Notes: generated by a model not told the origin, from the letters alone. A stretch of DNA of 64,000 nt from Verrucomicrobiia bacterium (GCA_030425385.1 JAUIAH010000004.1:248001-312000), one strand, 5' to 3'; numbered from the stretch's first letter, positions 4,030 to 36,192 are shown. Program-made: numbers and translations.

Positions 4030-4063
4030 TTCCCTCTGGCGACTCGTACAGGGTCGTTCGACC

Positions 4064-5254
4064 ATGTCTGAAATAGCCCACCTCCCCGACATCGTTGCTG
4101 ACGCCAAGAAGCGTGAATTCCCTCCCTTTAGCCTCAGCCGCCTCCTCCGAACGGTCTTTGAGCCTATCGAGGGGTGTAAGATCGCGATCCTAGTCGATCT
4201 CGAAGATCCAGCCTCCGAGATGGAGGCCTTTGGATTTCTGAAGAATCCCCGCTACGCCGTCCAGCAACGGGCACACCAGCATTTCTACAGCGCTTTGCAT
4301 GACTCTGTCATGGAGGAGCTGCGCATGACGGGAGGCGACATGTTTGCCTATCACATGACCCATGGTTCCAATCTCGATATGCGTGATGAGTGTTGGGATG
4401 TGGAGGGGAATGAACGCTCGCTTGACGCGGATGTTTATCCTAACTATGACATCATTCTGTGTATAGGCGATTGGAGCGCCACCGCGCCCTTGACGGCAAA
4501 GTGTAAGGAATTTGGATTCCGTGGCGCCACCATGCATGGGGTCAACAACGTCATTCTTTCCTCTGGGTTGGCTGTTGATTATGATGATGTCAGTGCTGAT
4601 GCGGAAAAGATCCGGCTCGCCATGAACCGCGCGGATGAAATTGAGATTGACTTTGCTCTCGAAGATGGGCGCGTGCTCACGGCCAGCCTCCAACTTGAGG
4701 CCCAGGAAGCGCAGAAATCGCACGGACTTTGTAAGGGAACAGATCCCGATGTCGCCAATCTTCCCGCTGGCGAAGTCTACTTTGTCCCGAGGGACGCCAA
4801 TGGTGAATTCCCCATGAAGTATGCGGACGGCACGTTAGGCGTGCTCACGGTGAAGGATCGCAATATCATCCGCTCGACGCTCATTGAGGGAGATCAAGCG
4901 ACCATTGATGCGCACAATGCGAGACTCGCGGACGATCCCATGACGGGGACACTGGGAGAACTCGGCTTCGGCACGCAGGTGTTGCCAGTTTCTGGCTCCG
5001 ACATTCAGGATGAGAAAGTGCTAGGCACTTGTCATCTAGCGACGGGACGCGACGACCATCTGGGTGGGGACATCGTTCCGGACATGTTCAAGAAGCACGA
5101 GAATTCCACACATGACGACATCCTCTTCGCGCCTCACAAAACGCCCAATTTCGATATCCAGCAAGTGCGCATGCGTCGAGGGGATCAACGCGAGATTCTC
5201 ATCGAGCATTTCCGCCCAGCGGAATATCTCGTCGAGGCTCTTTGTGGAGAGTGA
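4064..5254 (+). CDS. M29-like aminopeptidase (leucyl aminopeptidase, AmpS/T type)
   Basis: A 396-residue cytosolic protein. The C-terminal half has segments characteristic of the thermophilic-type M29 aminopeptidases: PAGEVYFVPRD near residue 240, GTLGELGFGTQV near 315, a histidine- and aspartate-containing LGTCHLATGRDDHLGG, and HDDILFAPHKTP. These normally supply the Glu, His and Asp ligands of a two-metal centre that removes N-terminal residues from peptides. I chose the ATG at 4064 (MSEIAHLPDI); the longer frame from 3998 overlaps the preceding gene and adds an unconvincing leader. It follows the GT-C-like gene by about 35 bp and converges on nagZ with an 18-bp gap. Confidence in the fold is good; substrate preference is unknown. 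Confidence 0.7.
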   Translation: MSEIAHLPDIVADAKKREFPPFSLSRLLRTVFEPIEGCKIAILVDLEDPASEMEAFGFLKNPRYAVQQRAHQHFYSALHDSVMEELRMTGGDMFAYHMTHGSNLDMRDECWDVEGNERSLDADVYPNYDIILCIGDWSATAPLTAKCKEFGFRGATMHGVNNVILSSGLAVDYDDVSADAEKIRLAMNRADEIEIDFALEDGRVLTASLQLEAQEAQKSHGLCKGTDPDVANLPAGEVYFVPRDANGEFPMKYADGTLGVLTVKDRNIIRSTLIEGDQATIDAHNARLADDPMTGTLGELGFGTQVLPVSGSDIQDEKVLGTCHLATGRDDHLGGDIVPDMFKKHENSTHDDILFAPHKTPNFDIQQVRMRRGDQREILIEHFRPAEYLVEALCGE

Positions 5255-5272
5255 CGGTGTTAGAGTAGTTTC

Positions 5273-6394
5273 CTACGCTCCCACGCCTTCCCAGGTAGGA
5301 TCTTCGCCCGCGTCCGCGGCTTCGCTCAGGAAGCTTTGGAAGGCGGCAGAAGGCTCAAACCACGGGAAGGACTTGTCCTGCTGTGCGCGGCGGAAGGCGC
5401 GGCAGCTCTCGAGATGGGCGAGCGCTTCGCGCACACGGGCTTCGGCGAGTTCGCCTTCTTGATAGGCGCGCTCGGCTGCATCGATGGCGTTGAGCATGAC
5501 GGCGTGCGTGTGACAGATGAGAGGCATGTCGATGCCCGCTTGAAGACCTGCCACGGCGGCTCCCACCGTGCCGTCCCATCGCGTCCCATCGGCGATGGCC
5601 TTCATCTCCATGCAATCCGAGATGCAGAGCCCTCGAAATCCAAGTTGGTCTCGCAGGAGGTTGGTGAGTACGTCAGGGCAGAGCGTGCCAGGGAGATCTG
5701 GATGGATCGCTTCGAAGATCACATGGGCCGTCATGATAGCGAGGGCGCCCTGGCGATGGAGGTCGGCGAGAGCCGAGAGCACGCGACGAAAGGGGAGGAG
5801 TTCCACCGCTTCCATCCGCTCCATGCGGTGGGGGAGACGCGGCAGCTCGTGGTGGCTGTCTTGATGGGTGTCTCCGTGCCCGGGAAAGTGCTTCCCACAG
5901 GCGATGATACCTTGTGAGTGAAGTCCTTCGATCAAGTGCTGGCCTAACAGAGCGACCTCGTTGGGGTCAGCGCTGAAAGAGCGTTCACCAATGACCGGAT
6001 TGTCAGGATTCGTGTCGACATCAAGGACAGGAGCAAAGTCCATGTCGAACCCAACCTCGCGCAGTTCCTGTCCGAGACATTGACCGATTTCGTGAGCGAT
6101 CGCAGCCCGATCACCCGGCGCCCGTCCGACCGCGCGCATGGAGGGGAGGCGTGTGAACCCGCGTTCCAAGCGCACGGTGTTCCCGCCCTCTTGATCGACG
6201 CAGACGAGCAGCTCGCTTCCGGCGATGGCGCGCGCGTCGGTGATCAAAGACGCGACTTGATCAGGCGTGTCGACATTGCGCGAGAACAGCACGAGCCCGC
6301 CCACGCCGCGGCCGAGGACGCGTTTGTCATCATCAGAAAGCTGCAGACCGCTGGCGCCGACGCAGAAGAGGGGAGCAAGGGAGGGGGTGGGCAT
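5273..6394 (-). CDS. nagZ: Beta-N-acetylhexosaminidase, GH3 family
   Basis: A 373-residue glycoside hydrolase family 3 protein of NagZ length (bacterial NagZ is about 340-360). It shows the family signature KHFPGHGDTHQDSH with the catalytic His/Asp loop, the CVDQEGG strand, DFAPVLDVDTNP, and CISDCMEMKAI, whose Asp is the nucleophile position. NagZ removes non-reducing N-acetylglucosamine from peptidoglycan turnover products in the cytosol. No signal peptide is visible, which agrees. I prefer ATG at 6394 over the GTG six codons upstream. The gene is divergent from a GlcNAc-6-sulfatase-like gene 112 bp away, so it could also act on GlcNAc released from host or algal glycans. Confidence 0.9.
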   Translation of the reverse strand: MPTPSLAPLFCVGASGLQLSDDDKRVLGRGVGGLVLFSRNVDTPDQVASLITDARAIAGSELLVCVDQEGGNTVRLERGFTRLPSMRAVGRAPGDRAAIAHEIGQCLGQELREVGFDMDFAPVLDVDTNPDNPVIGERSFSADPNEVALLGQHLIEGLHSQGIIACGKHFPGHGDTHQDSHHELPRLPHRMERMEAVELLPFRRVLSALADLHRQGALAIMTAHVIFEAIHPDLPGTLCPDVLTNLLRDQLGFRGLCISDCMEMKAIADGTRWDGTVGAAVAGLQAGIDMPLICHTHAVMLNAIDAAERAYQEGELAEARVREALAHLESCRAFRRAQQDKSFPWFEPSAAFQSFLSEAADAGEDPTWEGVGA

Positions 6395-6505
6395 GGGGCG
6401 ACCTAGCGTCACCTGCGGCGGATTGCCAGTCCTTAAGAAGCGCCCACCCAGAACTCTCTCAGTCTACGATTGCCAGGGTCAAGGTCTCGGGGTTAGAACC
6501 GCTGT

Positions 6506-8116
6506 ATGCAGCGTTTCATCCTTGCCCTTTCCTTCCTGCTCAGTGCGGGGCCGCTCGTGGCGGCGCCCAATGTTCTCTTCATCTTCACGGACGATCACGC
6601 CCCGCATGCGATCGGCGCTTACAATGGTTGGCTGAAATCGGTCAATCCCACGCCCAACATCGATCAGTTGGCGAGTGAAGGCATGGTCTTCGAACAGAGT
6701 TTCTGCACGAACTCCATCTGCGGCCCCAGCCGCGCGGTGATTCTGACGGGGAAACACAGCCACAAGAACGGTTTCATGAACAATGGGAACTCGTTTGACT
6801 GGGAGCAGCAGACCTTTTCGAAGATCCTCCGCGAATCCGGTTACCAAACGGCACTCTATGGGAAATCTCATCTCAAGGGCACCCCGCAAGGGTTCGATGA
6901 TTGGAAAGTCCTTCCCGGTCAGGGGGACTACTACAACCCCTTCCTCATCACGCCCGAGGGACGTGTGCAAGTGCAAGGCTACTGCACGGACATCGTGACC
7001 GATCTCGCAGTGGAGTGGCTCACCCAAGATCGCGACCCCGAGAAGCCCTTCTTTCTCATGGTGCAACACAAGGCCCCGCACCGTTGTTGGATGCCCGCCC
7101 TACGTCACCTTCATCTCTATGACGACATCACCATCCCTGAGCCGGACACGTTGTTCGATGACTGGCAGGACAACGCTCCACCCGCCCGGTATCAGGAGTT
7201 GGAAATTGATCGTCACATGGATCTGAACTACGACCTCTTCGTGGACCTCACGCCGGAGTTTGATCAGCCGGCCTCACAGAAGCGCCAAGATCGTTCCGCC
7301 TGGAACAATATGAAGCGCATGACGCCTGGCCAGCTCAAGACCTGGCGAGACGCGTATGGTCCTAAGGACGAAGCCTTTCATCGTGCCAAGCTCACGGGCA
7401 AAGACCTCGTGCGTTGGAAATACCAGCGTTACGCCAAGAACTACCTCCGTTGCATCAAGGGCGTGGATGAAAGTGTGGGCCGCCTGCGAGAGACGCTGAA
7501 GGAGTTGGGACTTGGTGAGGACACCATCGTCATCTATTCCTCGGACCAAGGATTCTACATAGGCGACCACGGCTGGTACGACAAACGGTGGATGTATGAA
7601 GAATCCCTCAAGATGCCTTTCGTCATCAAATGGCCAGGCGTCACCATCCCCGGTTCGCGCAACACGCACATGATTCAGAATCTCGACTACGCGCCCACCT
7701 TCCTCGATATGGCTGGGGCACGCATCCCGCGTGACATGCAGGGCCTATCGCTAGAGCCTCTCCTCAAAGGGCGTTCTCCGGATGACTGGCGCACCAGCAT
7801 CTACTATCACTACTACGAATACCCCAGCGTGCACATGGTGCCGCGCCACTACGGTATCCGCACCACGCGCTACAAGCTCATGCACTTCTATCGCTTTGAC
7901 GAATGGGAAATGTATGACCTGGAGAAAGATCCGGAAGAACTGACGAACATCTATGGTCGCCCAGGTTACGAACGCCTCACCGCGGACCTGAAGCAACAGC
8001 TCCGAGGGCTTCAAGAGACCTACGAAGACGATGGTGATTTCTCCGAGAAACCAGAGGCCTGGCAGAAAGAAATGCGCACTCCGGGAGCTTCCGCTACGAA
8101 GAAACTCGACTCATAA
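6506..8116 (+). CDS. S1-family sulfatase, GlcNAc-6-sulfatase-like, exported
   Basis: A 536-residue sulfatase with a Sec signal peptide (residues 1-19, ending GPLVAA). The metal-binding start NVLFIFTDDHAP and the modification motif C-G-P-S-R with Cys72 mark a type I (cysteine) sulfatase that needs conversion of Cys to formylglycine. The second part of the signature is GKSHLK at about residue 114. The run FDDWKVLPGQGDYYNPF is typical of the N-acetylglucosamine-6-sulfatase/mucin-desulfating group. It hydrolyses sulfate esters in the periplasm. The formylglycine-generating-enzyme homologue lies 900 bp downstream. It converges on hisA with only 12 bp between the stops. Confidence 0.85.
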   Translation: MQRFILALSFLLSAGPLVAAPNVLFIFTDDHAPHAIGAYNGWLKSVNPTPNIDQLASEGMVFEQSFCTNSICGPSRAVILTGKHSHKNGFMNNGNSFDWEQQTFSKILRESGYQTALYGKSHLKGTPQGFDDWKVLPGQGDYYNPFLITPEGRVQVQGYCTDIVTDLAVEWLTQDRDPEKPFFLMVQHKAPHRCWMPALRHLHLYDDITIPEPDTLFDDWQDNAPPARYQELEIDRHMDLNYDLFVDLTPEFDQPASQKRQDRSAWNNMKRMTPGQLKTWRDAYGPKDEAFHRAKLTGKDLVRWKYQRYAKNYLRCIKGVDESVGRLRETLKELGLGEDTIVIYSSDQGFYIGDHGWYDKRWMYEESLKMPFVIKWPGVTIPGSRNTHMIQNLDYAPTFLDMAGARIPRDMQGLSLEPLLKGRSPDDWRTSIYYHYYEYPSVHMVPRHYGIRTTRYKLMHFYRFDEWEMYDLEKDPEELTNIYGRPGYERLTADLKQQLRGLQETYEDDGDFSEKPEAWQKEMRTPGASATKKLDS

Positions 8117-8128
8117 GGAAGCCAGTCA

Positions 8129-8914
8129 CTAGGAGGATGGCGGCAACGTGTGCGCGCGGTTCCAGGCGACGCAGTCGGCGTAGCGGGCACCTTGGCCTCC
8201 GAAGAGATCAAGGGCGCTGCCGATGGTGAGGTCAACCTTGCCTTGGCTGAGGGCGTGAACCGTCTCCAGATCTTCCATCGACCGGGCACCGCCTGCGTAG
8301 GTAGTGGGGATGGTGGTCCACTCGGCTAACGCTTGGACGAGTTCGGTATCGATACCCTGACATTTGCCTTCGACGTCGGCGGCGTGAATAAGGAATTCGC
8401 TAGCGTGGCTCGCGAGCGTTTGGAGCGTGGATTGATCGACTGGCATTTCGGTGAGGGTTTGCCAGCGATTCATGGCCACCTGCCAGCCGCTATCTGTTCG
8501 TCGGCAACTGAGATCCAGCACGAGATGCTCTTTGCCCACTTCGGCCACGAGTTGGGCGAGTTGAGCCTCTTGGAAATGGCCTTCCTGGTCAAAGAGCATG
8601 GAAGTGACGATGACATGACTGGCGCCCGCTTGAAGGTAGTCGGCCGCATTGCTGAGATCGACGCCCCCTCCGAGCTGTAGCCCTCCTGGGTAGGCCGCGA
8701 GGGCATCGCGGGCGGCGGTCTCGTTGCCGGGACCGAGCTTGATCACATGTCCTCCCTTGAGGCCATCCTCTCGATACCGGTTGGCGAAGTAGGCGGCTGG
8801 ACGGTCGCTAACGAAATTCGTCTGCGCCTCACCGGTGGCATCCTTGAGCGTGCCGCCGACGATCTGTTTCACCTGGCCTTGGTGGAGATCAATGCAGGGA
8901 CGGAAGAGGCTCAT
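8129..8914 (-). CDS. hisA: Phosphoribosylformimino-AICAR-P isomerase, eukaryote-type HisA
   Basis: A 261-residue TIM barrel for the fourth step of histidine synthesis (ProFAR to PRFAR). The N-terminus FRPCIDLHQGQVKQIVGG and the SRxxD-like end region (TYAGGARSMEDLE) match the eukaryotic HIS6 subfamily rather than the common bacterial HisA, which starts IPAIDLKDG. I chose ATG at 8914 (MSLFRPCID); the open frame extends 35 codons further with a charged sequence that runs into the divergent gene's promoter. It stands alone, away from other his genes in this window. Length and motifs are intact, so I expect a working enzyme. Confidence 0.88.
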   Translation of the reverse strand: MSLFRPCIDLHQGQVKQIVGGTLKDATGEAQTNFVSDRPAAYFANRYREDGLKGGHVIKLGPGNETAARDALAAYPGGLQLGGGVDLSNAADYLQAGASHVIVTSMLFDQEGHFQEAQLAQLVAEVGKEHLVLDLSCRRTDSGWQVAMNRWQTLTEMPVDQSTLQTLASHASEFLIHAADVEGKCQGIDTELVQALAEWTTIPTTYAGGARSMEDLETVHALSQGKVDLTIGSALDLFGGQGARYADCVAWNRAHTLPPSS

Positions 8915-9028
8915 GGAGCGTATCTCTTCTGAAACGGTGCGCTGGTCAACCATGGGGACGGATCGTGAGCGATTCTTCTCCCTGGGGGAGGACTTGCGCT
9001 CAGAGGAAAGCTTGCTCAAGCTGGCCGG

Positions 9029-10153
9029 ATGAGAGAGTTCCCACGGCTTTGCCTGATCCTGATGCTCATCTTCCAGTGGTCCTGCGACTCCAAGACGGAG
9101 GTCGTGGAGGCGCCTCCCGAGGGAATGGTGTGGATTCCTGGTGGCGAGTTCCTCATGGGCTCAACGGAAGGAGAGCCGAATGAGACGCCCGTGCATCCAG
9201 TGCGCGTGAGTGGCTTCTGGATGGATGAGACGGAGGTCACCAATGCCCAGTTTCGCGCCTTCGTCGAGGCCACGGGTTATGTGACTCAGGGGGAGAAGCC
9301 CATGAGTGCGGAAGAGTATCCTGATGCGCCTCCGGATGCCCTCAAGGCGGGGTCCTTGCTCTTCAAGAAATCGGATGGGCCGGTGTCATTGGATTACCAC
9401 ATGCAGTGGTGGGAGTTCGTGCCCGGGGCTGATTGGCGGCACCCCTTTGGACCAGACAGTAGCATCGAGGGGAAGGATGACCATCCGGTGGTGTGTATCT
9501 CTTGGGATGATGCGCATGCATACGCGGAGTGGGCGGGGAAACGGCTGCCGACTGAAGCGGAATGGGAATTTGCTGCTCGAGGAGGACTGGAGCGGGCATC
9601 GTTTGCGTGGGGGGAAGAATTTAGTCCAGATGGCGCGTTTCAGGCCAATCTCTGGCAGGGAGAATTTCCCCATGACAACACGGCAGAGGATGGCTATGCG
9701 ACGACCGCCCCCGTGAAGCAGTTTCCACCCAATGGTTATGGGCTCTATGATATCTCGGGCAATGTCTGGGAGTATGTGCAGGACTGGTATGACCCCGATT
9801 ACTACATCCGGAGCCCGGAGTTTGGCCCTACAGGGCCGAGCTTGGAAGAGGTACTGGATCCCAGTAGGCGTCTCCGGCGTGGCTCGGATCACCGTCCACA
9901 ATTGGCGACGACGCCGCACAAAGTCATTCGTGGCGGCTCCTACCTCTGCAACGATTGCTACTGCAAAGGCTATCGGCCCAGTGCTCGCCAGATCTCCGAC
10001 ATGATCACGTCGACAAATCACACAGGCTTTCGTTGCGTGAAATCTGGAAAGGGTGGGGTTGCTAGGCCTCCTGCGCGGCCAGTTGCTCGAGAAAAGGGCT
10101 CGTCAGAAGGCAAGCTTGATTCGAAGTCGGCTCCCACTCCCAAAAACTTTTAA
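9029..10153 (+). CDS. Formylglycine-generating enzyme family (SUMF1-like) lipoprotein
   Basis: A 374-residue SUMF1/FGE-sulfatase domain protein. The N-terminus has a lipoprotein-type signal (hydrophobic stretch then QWSC, Cys19). The domain opens with MVWIPGGEFLMGS, continues with GFWMDETEVTNAQFRAF and RLPTEAEWEFAARGG, and closes with TGFRCVK. The stretch RGGSYLCNDCYC places Cys307 and Cys312 five residues apart, as in the catalytic cysteine pair of human FGE (Cys336/Cys341), plus an extra Cys310. Many bacterial family members lack the pair, so this one is a good candidate for a true sulfatase activator. It lies close to the sulfatase at 6506. An exported, lipid-anchored activator could act during or after sulfatase export (inference). 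The C-terminal ~30 residues are basic and low-complexity. Confidence 0.85.
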   Translation: MREFPRLCLILMLIFQWSCDSKTEVVEAPPEGMVWIPGGEFLMGSTEGEPNETPVHPVRVSGFWMDETEVTNAQFRAFVEATGYVTQGEKPMSAEEYPDAPPDALKAGSLLFKKSDGPVSLDYHMQWWEFVPGADWRHPFGPDSSIEGKDDHPVVCISWDDAHAYAEWAGKRLPTEAEWEFAARGGLERASFAWGEEFSPDGAFQANLWQGEFPHDNTAEDGYATTAPVKQFPPNGYGLYDISGNVWEYVQDWYDPDYYIRSPEFGPTGPSLEEVLDPSRRLRRGSDHRPQLATTPHKVIRGGSYLCNDCYCKGYRPSARQISDMITSTNHTGFRCVKSGKGGVARPPARPVAREKGSSEGKLDSKSAPTPKNF

Positions 10154-10195
10154 AAAGAGATTTCCAATCAACCGCTCAAATCTAAAGTCTCGACT

Positions 10196-11992
10196 GTGGC
10201 CTACCAGGTATTCGCGAGGAAATATCGCCCCCTAACATTTGACCAGATTCTTGGGCAAGATCACGTCGTGCAGACGCTGCGCAATGCCATTGAGCAGGAT
10301 CGTATTGCTCAGGCATATCTCTTTGTGGGGCCGCGGGGCACTGGCAAGACGACGACGGCACGGATTCTGGCCAAGGCGCTGAACTGCAGCAATGGCCCCA
10401 GCGCGTCGTTTGATCCGGACGAGGATATTTGTCAGGAGATCGCTGAGGGCAATAGTCTCGACGTCTTGGAGATTGATGGGGCGAGCAACAATGGCGTCGA
10501 GCAGGTGCGCGAACTCCGCGAGAATACGAAGTTTGCCCCCTCGCGTGGACGCTACAAGATCTACTACATTGATGAGGTGCATATGCTGACGACGGCAGCG
10601 TTCAACGCGCTTCTCAAAACGTTGGAAGAGCCCCCGCCGCATGTGAAGTTCATCTTCGCCACGACCGAGCCCAACAAGATCCTAGCAACCATTCTCAGTC
10701 GCTGTCAGCGATTTGACCTCCGGCCTATCCCAGACAACATCATTGCAGACCACCTCTTGCACATAGCGAGAGAGGAAGGAGTGGAGCTTGAGGAAATGGC
10801 TGCCCACTGCATTGCCAAAGGTGCGGAGGGAGGCATGCGCGATGCGCAATCCATGCTCGATCAATTGGTAGCCTTCTGCGGAAGTGCGATCCAGGAACAG
10901 CATGTGTTAGACATCTTCGGGTTCACCTCACACGAAACGGTGGCGACCCTTACCACGGCGATTCTTGAGAAGCGCACCGTGGATGCCTTGCAGGCGGTGC
11001 ATGAACAGACTGAAGCGGGAAAAGACCTAACCAAATTGCTGGCGGATCTCATTGCCTACTTCCGCAATCTCCTCGTCTACAAGGTGGATCCTGACAATGC
11101 GCTAGAAGGTCAGGCTGAGACAGTCGCCGCCACTCTGCGGGCTCAGGGAGAATGCATCGCCACGGATCGCCTGCTCGATCTCATCGATCACTTTGCGCAG
11201 GTGGATGCCCGCATGAAGTGGGCGCCTAACAAGAAGATGCATCTCGAGATTGGGATCATCAAAGCCGTGCAGGCACTTCAGGAAAGCAATCTGAGCGATG
11301 TGATTCGCGTGCTCGGCAAGGCCATCGATGGCGAGCCGCTGCCTGAGGTCCCCACAGCCACCGCAGCCGCCCCGCCGGCACCAGCGGCAGTGTCCTCTCC
11401 GGCGGCGACCACATCTCGGCCGCGAAACGTTCCCGAGCCAGAAACGAAGTTGGCACCCGTTGAGCCGGAGCCGTCACCGAGCCAAGGAACGCCTTCCTTG
11501 ACTGTGGTTCCCGATCCTGTGCCTTCAGCCGGAGGTGGAGCCGATCAGCTTTGGCGTCAGGTGCAGTTGAAATTCCCCATGATCTTCTCCCAGGCAGCTT
11601 TCGGCGGCGTGGAGGATGGGCGTTTTGTGGTGCGCTTTCACCCGTCGGACTTTGGGAAGGAACGGGCCAATGCGTCGCGGACGGACATCGAGAAACACTT
11701 GCAGGCGACTGCGGGTGAGTCGCTTCGCCTGGACATCTACATCGATGAATCCGTGCCCTTGGGACCGGTGGCCGCACCGCCTAAGTCCGCTAGCTTGCAC
11801 GATGTGGAGCCCGTGACGTCGGCAAGCAACGGGCACCCTCCAGGTCCGGCAAACAACTCGGCTCCTGATCAGAGTGCTGCCGCCCCCGTGGCCCCGCCGG
11901 TCGAGCCCATGGATGAGAAAGCTTTCTACGAAGACCCGTTGATTCAGAAAGCTCTTGATATCTTCGAAGGCACGCTGGAGAAGAAGGACTAA
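10196..11992 (+). CDS. dnaX: DNA polymerase III gamma/tau subunit
   Basis: A 598-residue clamp-loader ATPase. Start is GTG at 10196 (MAYQVFARKYRP, the typical DnaX opening). Walker A is GPRGTGKTT near residue 45, Walker B YYIDEVHML, the sensor/SRC motif ILSRCQRF. The usual four-cysteine zinc module after Walker A is largely missing: only two cysteines remain (ALNCSNGP and DICQE), with acidic residues between. Residues from about 380 onward are Pro/Ala-rich linker, followed by a small globular region and a C-terminal helix, as expected for tau. ybaB follows 23 bp downstream, the usual bacterial order. Recombination gene recR, which often comes third, is absent. Confidence 0.93.
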   Translation: MAYQVFARKYRPLTFDQILGQDHVVQTLRNAIEQDRIAQAYLFVGPRGTGKTTTARILAKALNCSNGPSASFDPDEDICQEIAEGNSLDVLEIDGASNNGVEQVRELRENTKFAPSRGRYKIYYIDEVHMLTTAAFNALLKTLEEPPPHVKFIFATTEPNKILATILSRCQRFDLRPIPDNIIADHLLHIAREEGVELEEMAAHCIAKGAEGGMRDAQSMLDQLVAFCGSAIQEQHVLDIFGFTSHETVATLTTAILEKRTVDALQAVHEQTEAGKDLTKLLADLIAYFRNLLVYKVDPDNALEGQAETVAATLRAQGECIATDRLLDLIDHFAQVDARMKWAPNKKMHLEIGIIKAVQALQESNLSDVIRVLGKAIDGEPLPEVPTATAAAPPAPAAVSSPAATTSRPRNVPEPETKLAPVEPEPSPSQGTPSLTVVPDPVPSAGGGADQLWRQVQLKFPMIFSQAAFGGVEDGRFVVRFHPSDFGKERANASRTDIEKHLQATAGESLRLDIYIDESVPLGPVAAPPKSASLHDVEPVTSASNGHPPGPANNSAPDQSAAAPVAPPVEPMDEKAFYEDPLIQKALDIFEGTLEKKD

Positions 11993-27240: not shown

Positions 27241-28716
27241 CTATGAACCTCCAGTCGGATTCAACGCCTCTTCCACACCGCGAAACTCCTCGAGCGCGAC
27301 TTCCAAGCTCTCGACGATCTCGGCGGCGAGTTCAGCTGGAGGTGGGAGGTTTTCGGTGTCTTCGAGGGATTCGTCTTTGAGCCAGAAGATGTCGAGGTTG
27401 GCTTTGTCTCTGGCGACGATCTCGTCGTAAGTGAATTTCTTGAAGCGGTCGGTTTCTTTGCGACGGGCTCTGGTCGGTGGCTTGTAGCACTTCACGAAAT
27501 CCTCAAGGTCGCTTTCCTTGAGGGGATTGGTTTTGAGGGTGAAGTGTTGGTTGGTGCGGAGGTCGTAGATCCAGAGGTCTTTGGTCCAGGGTATTTCGCT
27601 GGCTTCTTTGCGCTCGAAGAAGAGGACGTTGGCTTTGACGCCCTGGGCGTAGAAGATGCCGGTGGGGAGGCGCAATAGGGTGTGGACGTTGCAGTGTTTG
27701 AGGAGTTCGCGGCGGATGGTTTCGCCGGCGCCGCCTTCGAAGAGGACGTTGTCGGGGAGGACGACGGCGGCGCTGCCGCCGATCGCCAGTTCGCTGACGA
27801 TGTGCTGGAGGAAGTTGAGCTGTTTGTTGCTGGTGGTGGCCCAGAACTCGTCGCGCTCGTATTCCTGCTTCTCGGAGCTGATCTTGCCGTCTTCGCCGAC
27901 GATGGTGTAGCCGCCTTTCTCGCCGAAGGGCGGGTTGGCGAGGATCATGTCGAACTTCCGGCCGCTGGGCTGGGCGAGGGCGTCGGCGCGGTCGACGGGT
28001 GGGTCGTTGGCGTCCTTGGTGGAACCAATGCCGTGCAGGTAGAGGTTCATGGCGCAGAGGCTGACGACGCCGGGGACGATGTCGGTGCCGCGCAGGGCTT
28101 CGGTCTTGAGGTGGGTGCGGGCGGCCTTGTCGAGTTTGTGGTTGGCCTGGATGTAGTCGTGGGCGGCGAGGAGGAAGCCGCCGGTGCCGCAGGCGGGGTC
28201 GCCGATGACCTGTCCTGGCTGGGGCTGCATGACGTCGACGATGGCGCGGATGAGGGGGCGGGGGGTGAAGTATTGGCCGGCGCCTTTGTCGGAGGAGCTG
28301 GCGGTCTTTTCGAGGAGTCCTTCGTAGATGGCGCCCTTGATGTCGACGTCCATGCCGGACCAATCCTCGTCGGCGATCATTTTGATGACGCGCTGGAGGT
28401 CGGAGGGGTTGGAGATCTTGTTCTGGGCCTTGCGGAAGATGATGCCGACGAGGCCGGGCTCGGTGCCGAGGTTCTCGAGGGTGTGGCGGTAGTGGACTTC
28501 GAGCTCGTCGCCGCTCTTGCTGGAAAGCTCGGACCACTGGAACTCGGCGGGGATGGGGTTGTCGAAGCCCAGCTCGGTCATCTCGTCGGCGAGCTTGAGG
28601 AAGAGCAGGTAGGTGATCTGCTCGACGTAGTCGCCGTATCCGACCCCCGCGTTTTTGAGGACGTGGGCGTAGTTCCAGACTTTGGATACGATGGTGGCGG
28701 AGGAATCGTTCGACAT
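27241..28716 (-). CDS. hsdM: Type I restriction-modification methyltransferase subunit
   Basis: A 491-residue adenine methyltransferase. The HsdM_N helical domain covers residues about 5-140; SAM motif I is DPACGTGGFL (173-182) and the catalytic motif IV is NPPF (261-264). QYFTPRPLIRAIV and the C-terminal helical tail complete a normal HsdM. In type I systems HsdM needs the specificity subunit HsdS for target recognition, but none is encoded in this window. The start overlaps the DUF1016 gene's stop (TAATG). Composition is more GC-rich than the flanking chromosome, and the Leu TTAG/CTAG codons common elsewhere are rare here, so it looks acquired. A piece of this gene (residues about 61-103) is duplicated at 29759-30045. 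Confidence 0.92.
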   Translation of the reverse strand: MSNDSSATIVSKVWNYAHVLKNAGVGYGDYVEQITYLLFLKLADEMTELGFDNPIPAEFQWSELSSKSGDELEVHYRHTLENLGTEPGLVGIIFRKAQNKISNPSDLQRVIKMIADEDWSGMDVDIKGAIYEGLLEKTASSSDKGAGQYFTPRPLIRAIVDVMQPQPGQVIGDPACGTGGFLLAAHDYIQANHKLDKAARTHLKTEALRGTDIVPGVVSLCAMNLYLHGIGSTKDANDPPVDRADALAQPSGRKFDMILANPPFGEKGGYTIVGEDGKISSEKQEYERDEFWATTSNKQLNFLQHIVSELAIGGSAAVVLPDNVLFEGGAGETIRRELLKHCNVHTLLRLPTGIFYAQGVKANVLFFERKEASEIPWTKDLWIYDLRTNQHFTLKTNPLKESDLEDFVKCYKPPTRARRKETDRFKKFTYDEIVARDKANLDIFWLKDESLEDTENLPPPAELAAEIVESLEVALEEFRGVEEALNPTGGS

Positions 28717-29741
28717 TATTCAGGGGCGTGTTCTTCAGTGGTGTGGCTGAGCTCGAGGAACTCATGCAGCTTTTCCTGAAGGAGTTTCTTGTCGGGCAAG
28801 GTGGTTTCGTACTGTGCTACCAGTGCCGGGGAAAGACTTCGGCTGAGGGCGTATTCGACGACCTCATTGTCTTTCGAGGCACAGAGGAGCAGCCCGATAC
28901 TCGGGTTCTCGTGCTCCTTGCGAACATCGCGGTCTAGCGCCTCGAGGTAGAAGTTCAGTTTACCCAGGTGCTCGGGTTCGAAGCGGCCAACCTTCAATTC
29001 GATAGCGACAAGGCAATTGAGTTCCCGGTGGAAGAAGAGCAAATCGAGCGCGAAATCCTGATTGCCGACCTGGATCGGATGTTCCGATCCGATGAAGCAG
29101 AAATCACGACCTAGTTCCGTGAGAAACTGATGCAGATTTCTGAGGAGCCCCCGATGGAGATCGGCTTCCGTGTGGGACTCGGCAAGGTCGAGGAACTCCA
29201 CTACATAGCGGTCCTTGAAGACGGATTCCGCTGCTGGGTGCAATTGTCGCACCGCTGGTGAGACAATTGGGTTTTCGACCATTTTCCGCTCGAAAAGAGC
29301 CCCTTGGAGCTGTCTCTCAAGTTCTCTTCTCGTCCATTTTTCATCGGCAGCGGTCCGCAGATAGAACTCGCGCTCTTCCGGTTGCTTGGCTTGCGCCATG
29401 ATGACGAGGTTGTGGCTCCAGGCCAATTGTCGCACCAACGGTGCGAGATTTGGGGTCTGGTGATAGGTGTCGTGAAACTGCCTCATCCTCATGAGGTTTG
29501 CCCGCGAGAAACCGGACAGTGAGGGGTGGTTCTGCTTCAGGTAGGCGGCCAGTTCGTCGACAACTTTCCTGCCCCACTGTTCCTGCTCGATCTTCTGGCT
29601 GAGGATCTTGCCAATCTCCCAATAGAGGTCGATCAGCTCGGTATTCACCGCACGAACAGCTCGGGCTCGCCGAACCTCGATAAGTTGAGCGATCTCGCTG
29701 AAGGTGGTTCTGACCGAGGGTGTGAGATTGTCGTCCATCAA
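28716..29741 (-). CDS. YhcG/DUF1016 family PD-(D/E)XK nuclease
   Basis: A 341-residue protein. The N-terminal DUF1016 region has the diagnostic NTELIDLYWEIGK and GFSRANLMRMRQFHDTY and SWSHN-like QLAWSHNLVIM. The C-terminal nuclease domain has DFALDLLFFHRELNCLVAIELK, giving the catalytic Asp and the E-x-K. These proteins are frequent companions of type I restriction loci and are thought to be defence nucleases. It overlaps hsdM by one base (TAATG), so translation is probably coupled. Two adjacent ATGs at the start (29741, 29738) are alternatives. Confidence 0.88.
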   Translation of the reverse strand: MMDDNLTPSVRTTFSEIAQLIEVRRARAVRAVNTELIDLYWEIGKILSQKIEQEQWGRKVVDELAAYLKQNHPSLSGFSRANLMRMRQFHDTYHQTPNLAPLVRQLAWSHNLVIMAQAKQPEEREFYLRTAADEKWTRRELERQLQGALFERKMVENPIVSPAVRQLHPAAESVFKDRYVVEFLDLAESHTEADLHRGLLRNLHQFLTELGRDFCFIGSEHPIQVGNQDFALDLLFFHRELNCLVAIELKVGRFEPEHLGKLNFYLEALDRDVRKEHENPSIGLLLCASKDNEVVEYALSRSLSPALVAQYETTLPDKKLLQEKLHEFLELSHTTEEHAPE

Positions 29742-29782
29742 TGGAGAGGCTTACGGTTTGGCGATTTTGTTCTGGGCCTTGC

Positions 29783-29886
29783 TGAGCCGAGCGGAGCGAA
29801 CCGGAGTGCAACGGAGATAGCCGAAGGCAAACAGACGGCCTGGAAGGCCGGGCACCAGCCCGACTGATCGAAGAGAGGGAGTCAAC
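29783..29886. repeat. Palindromic insertion D inside the hsdM duplicate
   Basis: 104 bp replaces 5 bp of hsdM sequence, a net gain of 99 bp (33 codons). It contains GAGCGGAGCGA at 29789-29799, the reverse complement of the TCGCTCCGCTC core of insertions B and C. Small hairpins follow, such as GGCC-TGGA-AGGCC-like and GGGC-ACCA-GCCC. It stays open in the hsdM frame. Confidence 0.7.
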
Positions 29887-29944
29887 ATGATACCGACGAG
29901 GCCGGGCTCGGTGCCGAGGTTCTCGAGGGTGTGGCGGTAGTGGA

Positions 29945-30007
29945 ACCCCCGCGCCAACCCTCCGGGCGATTCCTTCGGAATCGTCGATCTCGCTCCGCTC
30001 GGTTCAA
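29945..30007. repeat. Palindromic insertion C inside the hsdM duplicate
   Basis: 63 bp replaces 6 bp of hsdM sequence, a net gain of 57 bp (19 codons). Contains the perfect hairpin CGATTCC-TTC-GGAATCG at 29967-29983 and the shared core TCGCTCCGCTC at 29990-30000. The hsdM frame stays open. Confidence 0.75.
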
Positions 30008-30116
30008 GCTCGTTGCCGCTCTTGCTGGAAAGCTCGAACCACCAAAACCAACTGGAAGTGCACTGCTGCGCTGACCTGAAAGATTGAAAGGAAATGCCAT
30101 AGTCTGACACATTTCA

Positions 30117-32663
30117 TCAGTCAAAATCATGCCGGTGGTCGGACATGGTCCGCTTTGCATCATTCCGGTAGCTTTGCCCAAGCTCTCGAAGGGTTGTCGC
30201 AAGTCTGACGAAGCCCTTTGCCTCGGCTTGGGCTGCGACAGCTTCCCATTGCTCTGCCAACTCGATCTCTTCCTTACCCCCAGTGCTCCAATACACCCCA
30301 CGTTCATTGAAAATTCGAATTCTCAACCCCCGACGATACTCGCCTTCCTCCTTGGAATTCAAGAGTTCACTCACAGGATCGATCCAGAGTCCCGACTCAT
30401 CCTTAGGAGTGAAATAGAGGGCTTCGCCAATTTGGTGAGACGCCACCTCCCAGTGGCCTGTCTCGGTGCAGCTTTTCTTAACAGAATCGATCCATTTCTT
30501 GAGTTGCTCACCGTCGTAACTTCCGTCAGATCGCGAGCCTGGCGGATAATCCCAATCCCTGAGGAGCGAGTAAGCGTTACTTGCTATTCTTGCCCTCTCT
30601 TCATCAACGTCCTCCGCAGCGTTATCATCCTCTTTCAGCTGGTCGCGCGACTTGTAGATCATCCGAATCACGTCACAGAAGAATTCTGGCCTCTCTGCTA
30701 GATGGCGATACAAAGTCTTAGGTTTCGCGCCTCCAAATCGATCCAGCAGTTTCAGGAACTTTATCTCCATCGCTGCAAGCCTCTCTTCATCAATTGAATC
30801 GGCCTTCTGAAGGTGATTGAACACTTCGTGGATTGCGTGGGCATCAAGTCGATGTTCCTCTGGATCGAACCCCTCAAGTGCTTGGAGGGCAAGCTCGGGG
30901 TAAGGGCCGTCCCAGATGTCCCCGAGCCAAAAGCACTGAATCGCTGTGTCCGGGCGATCATTCGCAAGAATCTGCCGGATCGCATGATCAAAGCTATCCA
31001 AATGATCTCGCTCAGGGTGAACCCGAACTCTTTTCCAGTATTTCTCCGAATGTTCCTGAAGTTCGGACTCTGCACGCTGCCAGCTTTCTTTGACCGATGG
31101 GAGAACCGCAAAGAACTCTGCTTTCGCGTCACTTGTCCAGTCCGACCGGCTCAAGTCGTCCACCCACTGCCATCCAAGGGAGCGAAATCGGCGCCATACA
31201 TACGCGATAGCAAACCGTTGGTCCAGTTCATTGCCTGAGTCAAAGAGTGACGGGAGAAACTCCGCATCGTGAGCCAATTTGGCATCTGCTCCGCAGGCGT
31301 TGCCAACCTCGTTGGGAGATTCAACCGAACGGGAAAAGCCCTTCAAAGCGTCCACTCCGCCCCTTTCTTGGATTTCTAAGAGCGCCTCAATTCGCTTCTT
31401 TAGAAGTCGTTCGCGTTGCTTGTCCCAGTCACCAGTTTCGTCATAGAGATCCATGTCTCTTCCGGAAAACAGCCTGCGGTGTCTGACCTCAGGCTCTTGA
31501 GGCTTCAGGCAATCAGCAACCTCTTCAAGCTCTTGAAGGCTCTGTTCTGGAACGGCCCATGATTCACTGTCCGCGTATTTGCGGTGGTTCCCGGTTCTAG
31601 TAGTAAGCTCCATCCATAGGTTGAGACGATCCTCATCAGGCAAGCTGAGAACCTGGTCTGAAGTCAGTCGCGCACGATAGTCTGCGGCGAATGAGCTAAA
31701 ACGGGGATGGATGTAAAAGTAAAAGGGGAGCAACTCACCAAGTTTGCCGGAATCGTTTCCTGCCAGTTCCAAAGCGCGATCTGCATAAAACCCTTCATCG
31801 GTAAGTCGCTGCTCCACTGAAGGCCTCTCTTTCCAGTTATCGGGGATGAAAGGTTGCCACTGTGGTTTGTGAGTGGGAGACGATGTTGCGTGGTGCCTGG
31901 GCAAGAGCGCAAGCAAGACCGTCCAAGCGACCTCCGGCTGTTCCCGAATGATGCACGTCATAGCGTTATGTCGGCCTTCAGTGTTTGCACAGGTGTGGGG
32001 AATCCAAGGTAGAAGGATTGTCACAAGCGAGTTTGAAGGACGGTTTGAGTATGTCCCTCCTGGATCTACTGCGGAAAGATTGGCCAATATAGCGCATACT
32101 CGAACCAAGTAATCCGGACTCCAGGCTAAAGATTCCAGAGCCCATAATAGGCCGCTTGAATAAGTCCGTCCCATAACGCCTCCGGCCTCCTGAGCAAACA
32201 CACCAGAAAAGGGTTCGTCCTTCTTCTCGCTGGCTCCTCCAACTGCTCTTAGAAAAGCATCTGGGGAAGCTTCGGCAAGTAGCGGCAAAACATCATTAAG
32301 GCTTGCCCATTGATCTGAATCGGCACCTTCAAGCAGCTTGTTCACGGTTTGGTAGGCGACAGCTTCCGCCTTGCCCTGCGAGCATGTTGTCAGAGCATCT
32401 GGCCTCGCACCCATTAGGGCGAGGGTTTCGGCAACGCCTTTCCGCATCTTCTTCGAATACGCCCTTGGCTTGCCATAGAGGCTTGCCGCGAAACGCTGAT
32501 CCTTGGGCAGAGCCAATTCGGGATCTGATTCCAATAAGACCTGAACCGCCAACTTGCCAAATTGTTCGAGCAGGTCATCACTCAATAGTGGGCCTTCGGA
32601 TTCCCATAGAGTGATCCTTTCTGTGACCCTCCACTTGCCATTGCGTTGTTCGAGGATGCTCAT
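30117..32663 (-). CDS. Large helical protein of a candidate two-gene defence module
   Basis: An 848-residue soluble protein that I cannot assign to a named family. It is rich in Trp, Leu and acidic residues and appears all-helical, perhaps HEAT-like (for example LWALESLAWSPDYLVRVCAI near residue 190). I see no Walker A, no metal-binding triad, no signal peptide and no membrane segment. The start ATG at 32663 overlaps the upstream nuclease gene's stop (TGATG), which implies coupled translation and a shared function. The open frame extends 6 codons further upstream but the overlap geometry favours 32663. Base composition is lower in GC than hsdM and hsdR, so it probably has a separate origin. 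It may be the sensor or scaffold of the nuclease, or the second half of a protein that is one chain elsewhere. Confidence 0.6.
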   Translation of the reverse strand: MSILEQRNGKWRVTERITLWESEGPLLSDDLLEQFGKLAVQVLLESDPELALPKDQRFAASLYGKPRAYSKKMRKGVAETLALMGARPDALTTCSQGKAEAVAYQTVNKLLEGADSDQWASLNDVLPLLAEASPDAFLRAVGGASEKKDEPFSGVFAQEAGGVMGRTYSSGLLWALESLAWSPDYLVRVCAILANLSAVDPGGTYSNRPSNSLVTILLPWIPHTCANTEGRHNAMTCIIREQPEVAWTVLLALLPRHHATSSPTHKPQWQPFIPDNWKERPSVEQRLTDEGFYADRALELAGNDSGKLGELLPFYFYIHPRFSSFAADYRARLTSDQVLSLPDEDRLNLWMELTTRTGNHRKYADSESWAVPEQSLQELEEVADCLKPQEPEVRHRRLFSGRDMDLYDETGDWDKQRERLLKKRIEALLEIQERGGVDALKGFSRSVESPNEVGNACGADAKLAHDAEFLPSLFDSGNELDQRFAIAYVWRRFRSLGWQWVDDLSRSDWTSDAKAEFFAVLPSVKESWQRAESELQEHSEKYWKRVRVHPERDHLDSFDHAIRQILANDRPDTAIQCFWLGDIWDGPYPELALQALEGFDPEEHRLDAHAIHEVFNHLQKADSIDEERLAAMEIKFLKLLDRFGGAKPKTLYRHLAERPEFFCDVIRMIYKSRDQLKEDDNAAEDVDEERARIASNAYSLLRDWDYPPGSRSDGSYDGEQLKKWIDSVKKSCTETGHWEVASHQIGEALYFTPKDESGLWIDPVSELLNSKEEGEYRRGLRIRIFNERGVYWSTGGKEEIELAEQWEAVAAQAEAKGFVRLATTLRELGQSYRNDAKRTMSDHRHDFD

Positions 32664-33640
32664 CAGCTTTGCTCCTTCCAAATCTCGCGGATCTTGGCCT
32701 GCCAGTCTTGAAATGCCATTCCAGATAAGGACTCAACTATCGAGCGATCTCCATCAGTGGATTCGTCCCAGCCGCCAATCAGATTCAATGCGATCGTTTC
32801 CTTTATCGGACTGGGTGCAATAGCTACAACTGGCTTCACATCATCCTGCTTGAAACAGTCCTTGATGGGCTGTGAGACGGAATCGCGTGTAAGGACGCCC
32901 GAAACGGAGCTCTTTTGCTGAACTTCCTGGACGATCATGTTCCATACAGTCTGAACATCGTTGTTGGAGTGAGACCCAATCAACGATTGGATGAGCGAAG
33001 TGGTCACCCCCGTCATTAAATCCATGTCGAAGCCGATCAGGTGGTAACATTTCAGGAACCTCCAGAACTCGTTGTTATCAGGGGCGACCCCCTTGTTCGC
33101 GTTCGCTACATGTAATTGAATGGTCTTGAGTTTGTTTCGCTGCGTTTGGCTTACCGCCTTAGATTGCGAGATTTTGCTATAGAAATCCGTAGAGTCGCTT
33201 GCCCCCCTGGCAATAGCCAAGACACGACAGACATTCTCGCTGTCCGTTTTGCTGATTGGCCCGGTTACTAACGCGATAGAGTCCCGTTTCTGGTGGAAAT
33301 GGGTCATATTGTTAAAATCCCTCCAAGCTGCCCCGATGACATCCGGCATTTGCTGATCTTTGTCGGTGAAGCGAATGGAGTGTTTGATCTGGAGCAACAA
33401 TTTAGACTCTTCTCCAGTATTGTCGTTTCTGGTGACAATTGCCGCGTCATCCGTTTCGTAACCCCTGTGTCGCGCTTGGAGGGCGACCTCCGCAATTGGC
33501 CATGGATAAGCCACACATGGGCATACTCCTCTCGAGAGCATAAGAGCCACAAACGCTGCCTGAACTCGGCTTTCAAATGTGAAACCTCCTCCTCCGGTGG
33601 AGAACGCGTTGCTGAGTTGTTTTGCTTCGTTCATACTCAT
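32663..33640 (-). CDS. Cap4/DUF4297-like nuclease of a candidate two-gene defence module
   Basis: A 325-residue protein starting at ATG 33640 (MSMNEAKQLS). Residues 18-90 have the pattern of Cap4/DUF4297 dsDNA endonuclease domains: a conserved glutamate in FESRVQAAFVALML (Glu23), a DD pair (Asp64/65) and LLLQIKHSI with Q-x-K (Gln84, Lys86) as the variant PD-(D/E)XK end motif. The C-terminal two thirds are helical and unassigned. It begins 39 bp after the truncated hsdR and overlaps the 848-residue gene downstream (TGATG). Cap4 nucleases act in CBASS or with STAND NTPases, but no cyclase, SAVED domain or P-loop is seen here. Open frames upstream of 33640 overlap hsdR and are shadows. Confidence 0.6.
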   Translation of the reverse strand: MSMNEAKQLSNAFSTGGGGFTFESRVQAAFVALMLSRGVCPCVAYPWPIAEVALQARHRGYETDDAAIVTRNDNTGEESKLLLQIKHSIRFTDKDQQMPDVIGAAWRDFNNMTHFHQKRDSIALVTGPISKTDSENVCRVLAIARGASDSTDFYSKISQSKAVSQTQRNKLKTIQLHVANANKGVAPDNNEFWRFLKCYHLIGFDMDLMTGVTTSLIQSLIGSHSNNDVQTVWNMIVQEVQQKSSVSGVLTRDSVSQPIKDCFKQDDVKPVVAIAPSPIKETIALNLIGGWDESTDGDRSIVESLSGMAFQDWQAKIREIWKEQS

Positions 33641-33798
33641 GGCGACTGATTGACGACTCTTTGTGGACTCAAATCGTATTAGCGAACCCGCGGGGCAGGT
33701 AAGGCGGCGAGGTCGGAGAATTTGATGCTGCGGCAGCCGCGGCCTTTCATCTGGTCGTAGAGGAGGGGCGAGCGGACGTCGCGGAGGAAGATGAGGCA

Positions 33799-33888
33799 TT
33801 GATTCGCAGGCTCCGCCCGCCTGCTCACCCTTCGGGCTGCGTTCGCTCCGCTCTCTCCGTCCAAAACGCCTACAAGCCTTCGGCGTTT
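33799..33888. repeat. Palindromic insertion B inside hsdR
   Basis: Exactly 90 bp (30 codons) between the codons for KPLE and CLIF of hsdR. Removing it restores a canonical KPLECLIFLRDV. It holds the shared core TCGCTCCGCTC at 33843-33853 and an inverted repeat AAAACGCC/GGCGTTTT at 33863-33888. Confidence 0.8.
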
Positions 33889-33929
33889 TTCGAGGGGCTT
33901 GATGTCGACGCCGGTGGCGACCATGTCGA

Positions 33930-33992
33930 CAATGCCACGCCGCGAGTCGCGGCTTTCCGTTTCGCCGGAGGCGCAAGCAGCATGGACGAAGT
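33930..33992. repeat. Palindromic insertion A inside hsdR
   Basis: 63 bp (21 codons), flanked by CAATG at 33930-33934 and again at 33993-33997, the look of a 5-bp target duplication. Deleting one repeat unit restores the expected AVIVDMVATG. It contains a perfect hairpin GCCGCGA-G-TCGCGGC at 33939-33953. Confidence 0.8.
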
Positions 33993-35715
33993 CAATGACG
34001 GCGATGCGGAACTCGGCCTGGGTGCGGAAGCTTTGGATGAGGTCCTTGGCTTTGACGGCGCTGGAGGTGGCCTTGTGGGTGATCTTGCGGCAGAAGGCGT
34101 CGCCTTTGTCGAAGACGTCGCGGCAGATGCGGATGACGCGGTCGGCGTGGGCGTCGGTCTTGGCGAAGATGAGGGTCTTGGGCACCCACTGGCCACTGCG
34201 GCCGGGGAAAAAGGTGTCGTAGAGGTGGTCGCGGTAGGTTTCGAGGACGGTTCTTATCTGGTCGTCGGCGATGACGGAGCGGCCGAGTTCGTCTGCGCCG
34301 TATTCGAGGTCGTCTTCGATGGCGTGGGTTTCCTGGACGTTGCGGTAGCTGTCGAAGAGCTCAAGCTGGGAGCCGGAGGGCAGGCTGGAGCCTTCGGCGC
34401 CGATGCGGTAGGCGATGTAGTCGACGTTGACTTCATCGAGGACGGACTGCCGGTAGGTGTAGCGGCTGACGGTGTTCTGGTGGAAGAAGGCTTCGGTATC
34501 GAGGGAGGGGGTGGCGGTGAGGCCGACGATGAAGGCGTCGAAGTAGTCGAGGACCTGCTTCCATTTGTTGTAGATGGAGCGGTGGCATTCATCGACGATG
34601 ATGAGGTCGAAGGTCTCGGGGGGAAGGTTGGGCTGGTAGGTGACTTCGATGGGTTCGCCGGTGGCGAGGTCGCTGTCGAAGGAGGAGCGCTCGTCTTCGT
34701 CGTCGTCGATGGCTTCGGGGTCGCCTTTGAGCTGGGCGAAGAGGCGCTGGATGGTGGAGATGACGACCTGGTTGACGGGATCGAAGCCGGCGGCGCCGAG
34801 GTGGCAGACGTTGTAGACTTCGGGGAAGAGCTTGCCGGTGTCGGGGGCGGCGTAGGTGTCGAACTCGCCCTTGGCCTGGGTGCCGAGGGAGTTGCGGTCG
34901 ACGAGGAAGAGGACGCGCTTGAGGCGGGCGAACTTGAGGAGGCGGTAGACTTCGGTGACGGCGGTGAAGGTTTTGCCGGCACCGGTGGCCATGTGGATGA
35001 GGGAGCGGGGGCGGGCGGCGGCGAGGGAGGCCTCGAGGCCGGTGATGGCTTCGTGCTGGCAATCGCGGAGGGGCTGGGCGGCGCCGGCCAGGGAGGCGTC
35101 CAGCGGGTGCGCGGTGGGGAGGGCGGCGAGGCGGCGGCGGAGGGTATCGTCGGGAGCTTTGGCCTCCTCCATCAGCTTGCGAAGCGCCTCGGGCTTCGGG
35201 AAGTGGAAGATTGGGCGGGCGCGAGGCTCGGGGTCGCGGGCGTCGGTGAACTGGATCTGGCGGCCGTTGGCTTCGAAGCGGAATGGGAGTGGGTTCTGCC
35301 AGCAGGTGGCGGGGTCCTGCCAGCGGCGGAAGACGGTATACGTGGCGGATTGTTCCTGAACGCCTTCAAGGGAGTGTTCCGCGCGCTTGGCTTCGAGGAT
35401 GCCGCAGGCCTTGCCGTCGAGGTAGAGGACGTAGTCGGCTCGGCCGGTGTCGCCCGTGGATTCACACAGCGCAGTGGGTTGACGGCCTACCGAGGAACCC
35501 GGCGGGGCGACATGCCAGCCTGCCGCCCGCAGTTGGGCGTCGATAAGGATCCGAGCAGAGGCTTCAGGCGATTCCAAGGTTTGAAAGTGATAGCAGGAGA
35601 GGGAGCGAGCGCAAGCATGGTGATCGGTTGCGGAAACACGGTGGTGGCTTCTCAAGGACGGCACATGGAGGCTCGCCTTCGTAGACGTGACGGGCGTAGA
35701 GTGGATTGCATCACC

Positions 35716-36192
35716 ATGATTCGTCCCTTTCACCCGCAAGACTTGCCGCGCCTCAAGGAGATCACGACGATCTGTTTCGAGGGCGTCTCTATCGACCGCA
35801 ACATTGAGAGGCAGTTTGGCCACGTTGGTGGCCATGATTGGGCCTGGCGGAAAGGACGGCACATCGATGCTGATGTCGCTCCGCCGAATGATGAGGGTGT
35901 GTTTGTCTACGAAGATGCCGAATCGGGCGAGGTCATCGGTTACATCACTTGCCGGATCGATCCTAATAGTAAGATCGGTCAGATTCCCAATCTCGCTGTT
36001 CACCCTTCGGCTCAAGGGCAAGGCATTGGGAAGGAACTCATGCAACACGCCTTTGATTATTTCCAAGCGGCGGGCATGGAGTTAGCCAAGATCGAAACGT
36101 TGGATCAGAACCCGGTGGGTCAGCAATTCTACCCCCAGATGGGATTCCAAGAAGTGGCTCGCCAGATACACTATGTGAAACCGTTATCCTGA
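35716..36192 (+). CDS. GNAT-family N-acetyltransferase
   Basis: A 158-residue acetyltransferase: MIRPFHPQDLPRLKEI start, then IPNLAVHPSAQGQGIGKELM with the Q-x-x-G-x-G acetyl-CoA loop, and a NPVGQQFYPQMGFQEV end strand. The substrate is unknown; similar proteins act on protein N-termini or small amines. ATG 35716 is preferred; the very long open frame extending upstream is antisense to hsdR. Its stop overlaps the next gene's ATG (TGATG). It marks the right edge of the accessory island. Confidence 0.85.
   Translation: MIRPFHPQDLPRLKEITTICFEGVSIDRNIERQFGHVGGHDWAWRKGRHIDADVAPPNDEGVFVYEDAESGEVIGYITCRIDPNSKIGQIPNLAVHPSAQGQGIGKELMQHAFDYFQAAGMELAKIETLDQNPVGQQFYPQMGFQEVARQIHYVKPLS

Follow-up and report, generated by a model that had tools for sequence, protein, structure and literature searches.

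Organization of the locus

The window, that is, the whole stretch of 64,000 nucleotides analysed here, carries on its minus strand two genes, A and B, which share one base within a TGATG (Table 1). Both open reading frames were present as they had been given in a preliminary description of this DNA, and so was the restriction island in which it had placed them: an HsdR ORF, a DUF1016 nuclease gene and an hsdM gene adjoin the pair on the same strand. The AAGGAG preceding gene B is a putative, good ribosome site for re-initiation. The G+C contents of genes A (50.1%) and B (52.7%) are lower than those of the hsdR body (65%) and hsdM (62%). From this difference, the pair looks like a separate acquisition that was inserted into the hsd cluster.

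Table 1. Features of the A/B locus, numbered from the first letter of the window
Feature	Position	Strand	Remarks
Gene A	32663..33640	-	325 aa, ATG at 33640; Cap4/DUF4297-type PD-(D/E)XK nuclease (residues ~13-265, predicted) and first winged-helix helices
Gene B	30117..32663	-	848 aa; predicted wing of winged helix, then all-helical solenoid; proposed sensor subunit
Glu23 codon (catalytic)	33572..33574	-	36/36 relatives
Asp64 and Asp65 codons	33446..33451	-	36/36 relatives
Gln84-Ile85-Lys86 codons (QxK motif)	33383..33391	-	Q and K in 35/36 relatives
Gene A share of split winged helix (residues ~278-324)	32669..32809	-	from alignment with single-chain relatives and the L043 model
Gene A stop codon	32663..32665	-	last base is first base of the gene B ATG (TGATG)
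AAGGAG, Shine-Dalgarno-like	32672..32677	-	8 nt 5' of the gene B ATG
HsdR ORF (type I restriction subunit)	33679..36066	-	ResIII and HSDR_N matches; upstream of gene A
DUF1016/YhcG-type PD-(D/E)XK nuclease (PADLOC PDC-S02), context	28716..29741	-	profile match; downstream of gene B
HsdM, type I methyltransferase, context	27241..28716	-	profile match; downstream of gene B

The match of the HsdR ORF to an EcoAI-type profile stops at position 465 of 768, and the window hsdR looks damaged, being truncated at its C-terminus. Close to its end, the ORF contains about 30 additional residues, and it stops 39 bases before gene A. Since a GNAT gene on the plus strand overlaps the first 160 codons, the true start of HsdR probably lies further inside the ORF. 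The examined genes of the window did not include an hsdS. It should be mentioned that GAGCGGAGCGA-like motifs are common to positions 29742-30116, after gene B, and to about 33790-33880, in the extra stretch of hsdR; both stretches may thus contain copies of a small dispersed repeat.

The nuclease of protein A

Pfam and NCBIfam gave no meaningful match to protein A or protein B. The only PADLOC match of protein A was a weak one to PDC-M54A (E 0.002), PADLOC yielded no usable match for protein B, and no significant match was obtained when solved structures were searched by sequence. An AlphaFold2 model of protein A was built from an alignment of 36 sequences; its pLDDT was 82.4, and it was confident over the nuclease. 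The best match among solved folds was the Avs3 nuclease, with a Z score of 13.7 over 202 residues and an rmsd of 3.6, followed by LmuA of Lamassu (Z 13.3), HerA-DUF4297 (13.0), Cap4 (12.1) and Hachiman (11.4). The Z scores of ordinary restriction enzymes, 7.5 or less, were far below those of these immune nucleases.

A Cap4/DUF4297-like pattern of Glu23, Asp64/65 and Q84-x-K86 had been proposed for the first protein, and these positions proved right: Glu23, Asp64 and Asp65 are present in all 36 aligned relatives, and Gln84 and Lys86 in 35 of them. The nuclease fold that structure prediction was expected to reveal was also found. According to the model, protein A is a PD-(D/E)XK nuclease fold of the Avs3/LmuA/DUF4297/Cap4 type. 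The substrate of the LmuA and DUF4297 nucleases is DNA.

Nucleases of the A type are also seen on a 1,679-residue protein with an intact P-loop from a Hymenobacter plasmid (L009, 6950-11989) and on a 1,500-residue TPR protein from a Burkholderia plasmid (L010, 6869-11371). This means that the A-type nuclease moves between receptor types.

The winged helix and the solenoid

A single-chain relative from Akkermansiaceae (L043) shows about 45% identity to each of the window proteins. In its model (pLDDT 82, pTM 0.51; the domains are fair, whereas their arrangement is unreliable), the nuclease at residues 16-260 is followed by a winged helix at 276-333, the wing strands of which are 324-327 and 330-333, and beyond it by helices only, up to residue 1159. 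When the window proteins were aligned with single-chain relatives, the A/B boundary fell between the last winged-helix helix and the wing. Gene B is thus predicted to encode the wing and then an all-helical solenoid. Because the boundary lies inside the winged helix, A and B should dock by jointly completing this one domain.

The solenoid gave fold matches to importins, CAND1 and the PP2A scaffold, all with low TM scores. These are generic HEAT-like arrangements and were not taken as a sign of kinship. A match of protein B to KMP11 (E 0.07) was regarded as a chance helical match. No relatives of B were found in an annotated phage collection.

No Walker A motif is present in protein A or protein B, and no P-loop NTPase is present in the L043 model. 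Stray Walker A-type motif matches occurred in 3 of 107 relatives, all within the part that matches B. The earlier statements that the second protein has no nameable motif and that NTPase, cyclase and SAVED domains are absent agree with these results: profile libraries had nothing meaningful to say of protein B, the neighbours of the pair are HsdR, DUF1016 and HsdM, and the nuclease is followed only by helices and the winged helix. Solenoids usually bind proteins. The sensor role that we propose for the solenoid is drawn from the analogy with PD-Lambda-4_A and from the swapping of effectors, both described below.

Single-chain relatives and conservation of the split

A scan of representative genomes for the B family gave at least 543 confirmed stretches, the best 80 of which were retained. 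Since these 80 loci are the closest to the window, class frequencies among them are not those of the whole B family. In about 39 of the 107 loci examined, a Cap4-type nuclease and B form a single polypeptide of about 1,180 residues, and the occurrence of A and B in such fusions indicates that they act together. Single chains of the nuclease-winged helix-solenoid type are distributed over many bacterial and archaeal phyla; among the 5,426 complete genomes of E. coli, seven have a full-length copy, annotated "hypothetical protein", and WP_115423912.1 is a single-chain protein of this species. The single-chain relatives suggested in the preliminary description therefore exist and are common.

The split itself is conserved. 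In a Roseibacillus genome (L041, 82% identical in B), the genes are split at the same place and in the same relative frame, with a TAATG junction and the AAGGAG kept. In an Opitutales genome (L042, 56% identity), the place and the relative frame are again the same, and the corresponding motif is AAGGAC. Four more Cap4 loci (L057, L110, L116 and L117) are split elsewhere within the winged helix, and by parsimony the split and fused forms interchanged about three times among Cap4-type members. Between the window and L041, dN/dS of B is 0.08, and pN and pS of A are 0.085 and 0.81, respectively; these values hold for both genes up to the junction. This pattern of substitution indicates that both genes are under strong purifying selection and that neither is decaying; a pseudogene reading is contradicted by it. 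The same split in two other genomes, together with selection that reaches the junction, argues that the pair is not due to chance, and the split is judged to be real and old. A natural split of one long protein, as had been suggested, is thus in keeping with the preserved start codon, frame and selection. No slippery heptamer was found before the stop codon in the window, L041 or L042, and fusion of A and B by programmed frameshifting was dropped for this reason.

Exchange of effectors in the B family

The B module is associated with at least eight effector types: the Cap4-type nuclease, another PD-(D/E)XK nuclease, a kinase, SIR2, a phosphorylase-superfamily domain, a HEPN-like domain (assigned by its motif only), DUF4145 and HetE-N. 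The DUF4145 versions follow a large methyltransferase gene. When the effector classes were placed on a tree of 95 B sequences, 14 changes were required, where the minimum is 7 and the mean of shuffled labels is 40. For the Cap4 label, at least 11 changes are forced by well-supported branches. In this tree, a quick one, the window B was grouped with L029 and L040 (60% identical in B), the N-terminal part of which is unrelated to A.

Some arrangements in the family deserve separate mention. In L072, L076 and L090 (~3000-10538), an Eco57I/N6_Mtase adenine methyltransferase gene overlaps the DUF4145-B gene by 1-4 bases, which is possibly a methyltransferase-linked version of the B-type receptor. 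In L004 and L125-L127, which are Enterobacteriaceae plasmid and virus-like contigs, a gene for a small HetE-N protein is followed by a B-type gene with a short N-terminus of its own, of only some 80 residues; this is possibly an adaptor-linked version. A B-type gene overlaps a protein kinase gene in L097 (6776-10526), and B-type genes of L069, L085 and L114 overlap a gene whose product is HEPN-like and has an RNEHYH-type motif.

Genomic context of the relatives

For the surroundings of 32 Cap4-type loci, up to three genes on each side (144 proteins), matches at E 1e-10 or better were obtained to 324 PADLOC families, HsdR, HsdS and HsdM being among them, whereas 127 genes from random regions matched 47 families, with no hsd family among the matches listed; the family counts overlap and are a rough measure. 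A type I restriction-modification (RM) or DUF1016 gene lies within the examined flank of 10 of 42 Cap4-type loci. The expectation that homologues would lie in defence islands is thus borne out in part: enrichment beside restriction and defence genes relative to random genes was observed, whereas 10 of the 42 loci have an RM or DUF1016 gene in the examined flank.

Seven relatives (L042, L043, L065, L071, L099, L112 and L049) are nested between hsdS and hsdR on one strand. Six of them are of the Cap4 type and one is of the PDDEXK class; they come from several phyla, including an archaeon, and the gaps are as short as a few bases and as long as about 1.4 kb. The interval between hsdS and hsdR is known to carry cargo, namely PrrC, DarTG2 and TgvAB (PMC3874165, PMC12255303, PMC11411939). 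For this reason, the nesting points to defence in general and only weakly to a guard like PrrC. All four E. coli copies examined adjoin prophage genes, and other relatives are on plasmids and virus-like contigs. Gene A occurs in only 5 of 384 genomes of the window's class. Such patchy occurrence is typical of defence genes. No common partner NTPase or ATPase that might act in trans was found among the neighbours of the relatives.

Comparison with known systems

Weak PADLOC matches pointed to PD-Lambda-4_A, which occurs in Enterobacteriaceae genomes; PD-Lambda-4 is a tested E. coli anti-phage system (PMC9519451). In a profile-profile comparison, 628 columns of the B family aligned collinearly with the C-terminal half of PD-Lambda-4_A, at an E value of 5e-11 and a probability of 97, whereas the controls (the reversed profile, the PD-Lambda-4_A N-terminus, HsdR and two other long proteins) all had probabilities below 1. 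By profile comparison, the B family is homologous to this C-terminal half, and PD-Lambda-4_A is the nearest characterised homologue of B, though a distant one. Like the B family, PD-Lambda-4_A has a winged helix and a helical module, in the order effector, middle part and sensor. However, it is one chain, its N-terminal nuclease is unlike A (probability 0.2), and it has an intact P-loop NTPase, with the motif GLSGxGKT in 7 of 7 sequences, which is found in neither A nor B. In the PDDEXK class, the region at the place of this NTPase aligns moderately (probability 69-82) and the P-loop is absent; a decayed NTPase in this class is only suggestive. A history leading from a STAND receptor through a dead NTPase to its loss is plausible, this direction being tentative.

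Avs3 (AVAST type 3) resembles the pair in its nuclease, the best solved match of A, and in combining an effector with a large sensor. It differs in its STAND NTPase. The pair would act in the manner of these receptors but, because the defining NTPase is absent, is neither an Avs nor a PD-Lambda-4 system. In HerA-DUF4297 and in Hachiman and Lamassu, nucleases of the same fold as A are also separate subunits with a partner; however, the partner is a HerA, SMC or helicase ATPase, whereas that of A is a solenoid. No HerA is present among the window neighbours, by which identity with HerA-DUF4297 was ruled out. Cap4 of CBASS shares with A the nuclease fold and the conserved D and QxK residues, but it has a SAVED domain and works with a cyclase. 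No SAVED domain follows the nuclease according to Pfam, NCBIfam and the models, and no CD-NTase cyclase adjoins the pair; identity with CBASS was thus ruled out as well. PrrC is, like a subset of the relatives, a latent nuclease encoded within a type I hsd operon, and the placement of the window pair agrees with this feature. In contrast to A, a PD-(D/E)XK nuclease with no ATPase, PrrC is an ATPase anticodon nuclease; its hallmark ABC-ATPase domain is absent from A and B, and most relatives have no RM link in the examined flank.

No paper describing the A/B family was found in a literature search, in which subscription papers and bioRxiv were thinly covered, and the profile libraries searched contain no model of the family.

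Proposed mechanism and alternatives

The pair is probably a bacterial anti-virus sensor-effector pair. On balance, we favour the reading that A and B are subunits of an anti-phage complex of this kind, which is a split version of a widespread single-chain receptor and has no NTPase. Protein A would be a latent Cap4-type DNA endonuclease, kept inactive by the solenoid of B. The two chains would be joined through the shared winged helix. Protein B would recognise a cue of infection, for which a phage protein or a host complex disturbed by phage is the likeliest candidate. Binding of the cue would change or oligomerise the A-B complex and so release DNA cleavage, the outcome of which might be abortive infection or direct restriction. 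Since the NTPase that lies between effector and sensor in PD-Lambda-4_A is absent, this switching would be mechanical, not nucleotide-driven.

A different function is suggested by the position of the window pair between HsdR and DUF1016-HsdM and by the seven relatives nested in hsd operons: the pair might be a guard that the Hsd complex keeps silent until a phage anti-restriction protein puts this complex out of action. PrrC, which sits inside a type I hsd operon, is silenced by the Hsd complex in this way (PMC3874165, PMC2610378). This reading keeps some probability, though a low one. Most relatives have no RM genes in the examined flank, and the copies in E. coli and on plasmids occur on their own; the window itself lacks a detected hsdS and has an hsdR that looks truncated. 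The hsdS-hsdR gap also houses DarTG2 and TgvAB, and TgvAB is protective by itself (PMC12255303, PMC11411939). The winged helix in the middle of the L043 model, the RM and DUF1016 neighbours and the action of LmuA and DUF4297 nucleases on DNA would also fit a direct restriction system, in which B and the winged helix read the structure or modification of DNA and A cuts it, with no sensing of phage proteins. This is unlikely, because the kinase, SIR2 and phosphorylase partners of B do not cut DNA and a module for DNA recognition only fits them poorly; the protein-binding habit of solenoids also speaks against it.

The overlap of the two genes, the combination of a nuclease with a possible inhibitor, and carriage on plasmids are reminiscent of a toxin-antitoxin pair for maintenance of an element, with A as the toxin and B as the antitoxin. 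We consider this very improbable: most relatives are one chain, which makes a labile antitoxin unlikely, and B exceeds all usual antitoxins in size and is combined with many types of effector. Since the single-chain form is commoner among the relatives and the neighbouring hsdR looks damaged, the pair could also be the decaying, frameshifted remnant of a single-chain gene. This can hardly be maintained in view of the split kept in two other genomes with its start codon, ribosome site and frame, the selection on both genes to the junction, and the repeated interchange of split and fused forms.

Implications

What is unusual is the family behind the locus, not the locus alone: it is unnamed, widespread and effector-swapping, and has no recognisable nucleotide switch. 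The window proteins are not matched by Pfam or NCBIfam and are matched only weakly by PADLOC, so that the family is missed by current defence annotation. We tentatively suggest, at somewhat less than even confidence, that it represents a large class of prokaryotic immune receptors in which killing domains that can replace one another (nucleases, SIR2, kinase, phosphorylase and HEPN-like) are linked directly to a winged helix and a solenoid sensor, either fused or as overlapping pairs, with no NTPase. The class would have arisen from STAND proteins of the PD-Lambda-4_A kind whose NTPase decayed and was lost, and would amount to NLR-like immunity that runs without a nucleotide engine. The split pair makes this model testable, as the effector can be produced and mutated independently of the sensor and vice versa, and the position of the gene boundary within the winged helix indicates where A and B are expected to dock. 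STAND receptors are thought to require a nucleotide switch. If the model is true, this NTPase-less family would demonstrate that no such switch is needed to link sensing with killing.
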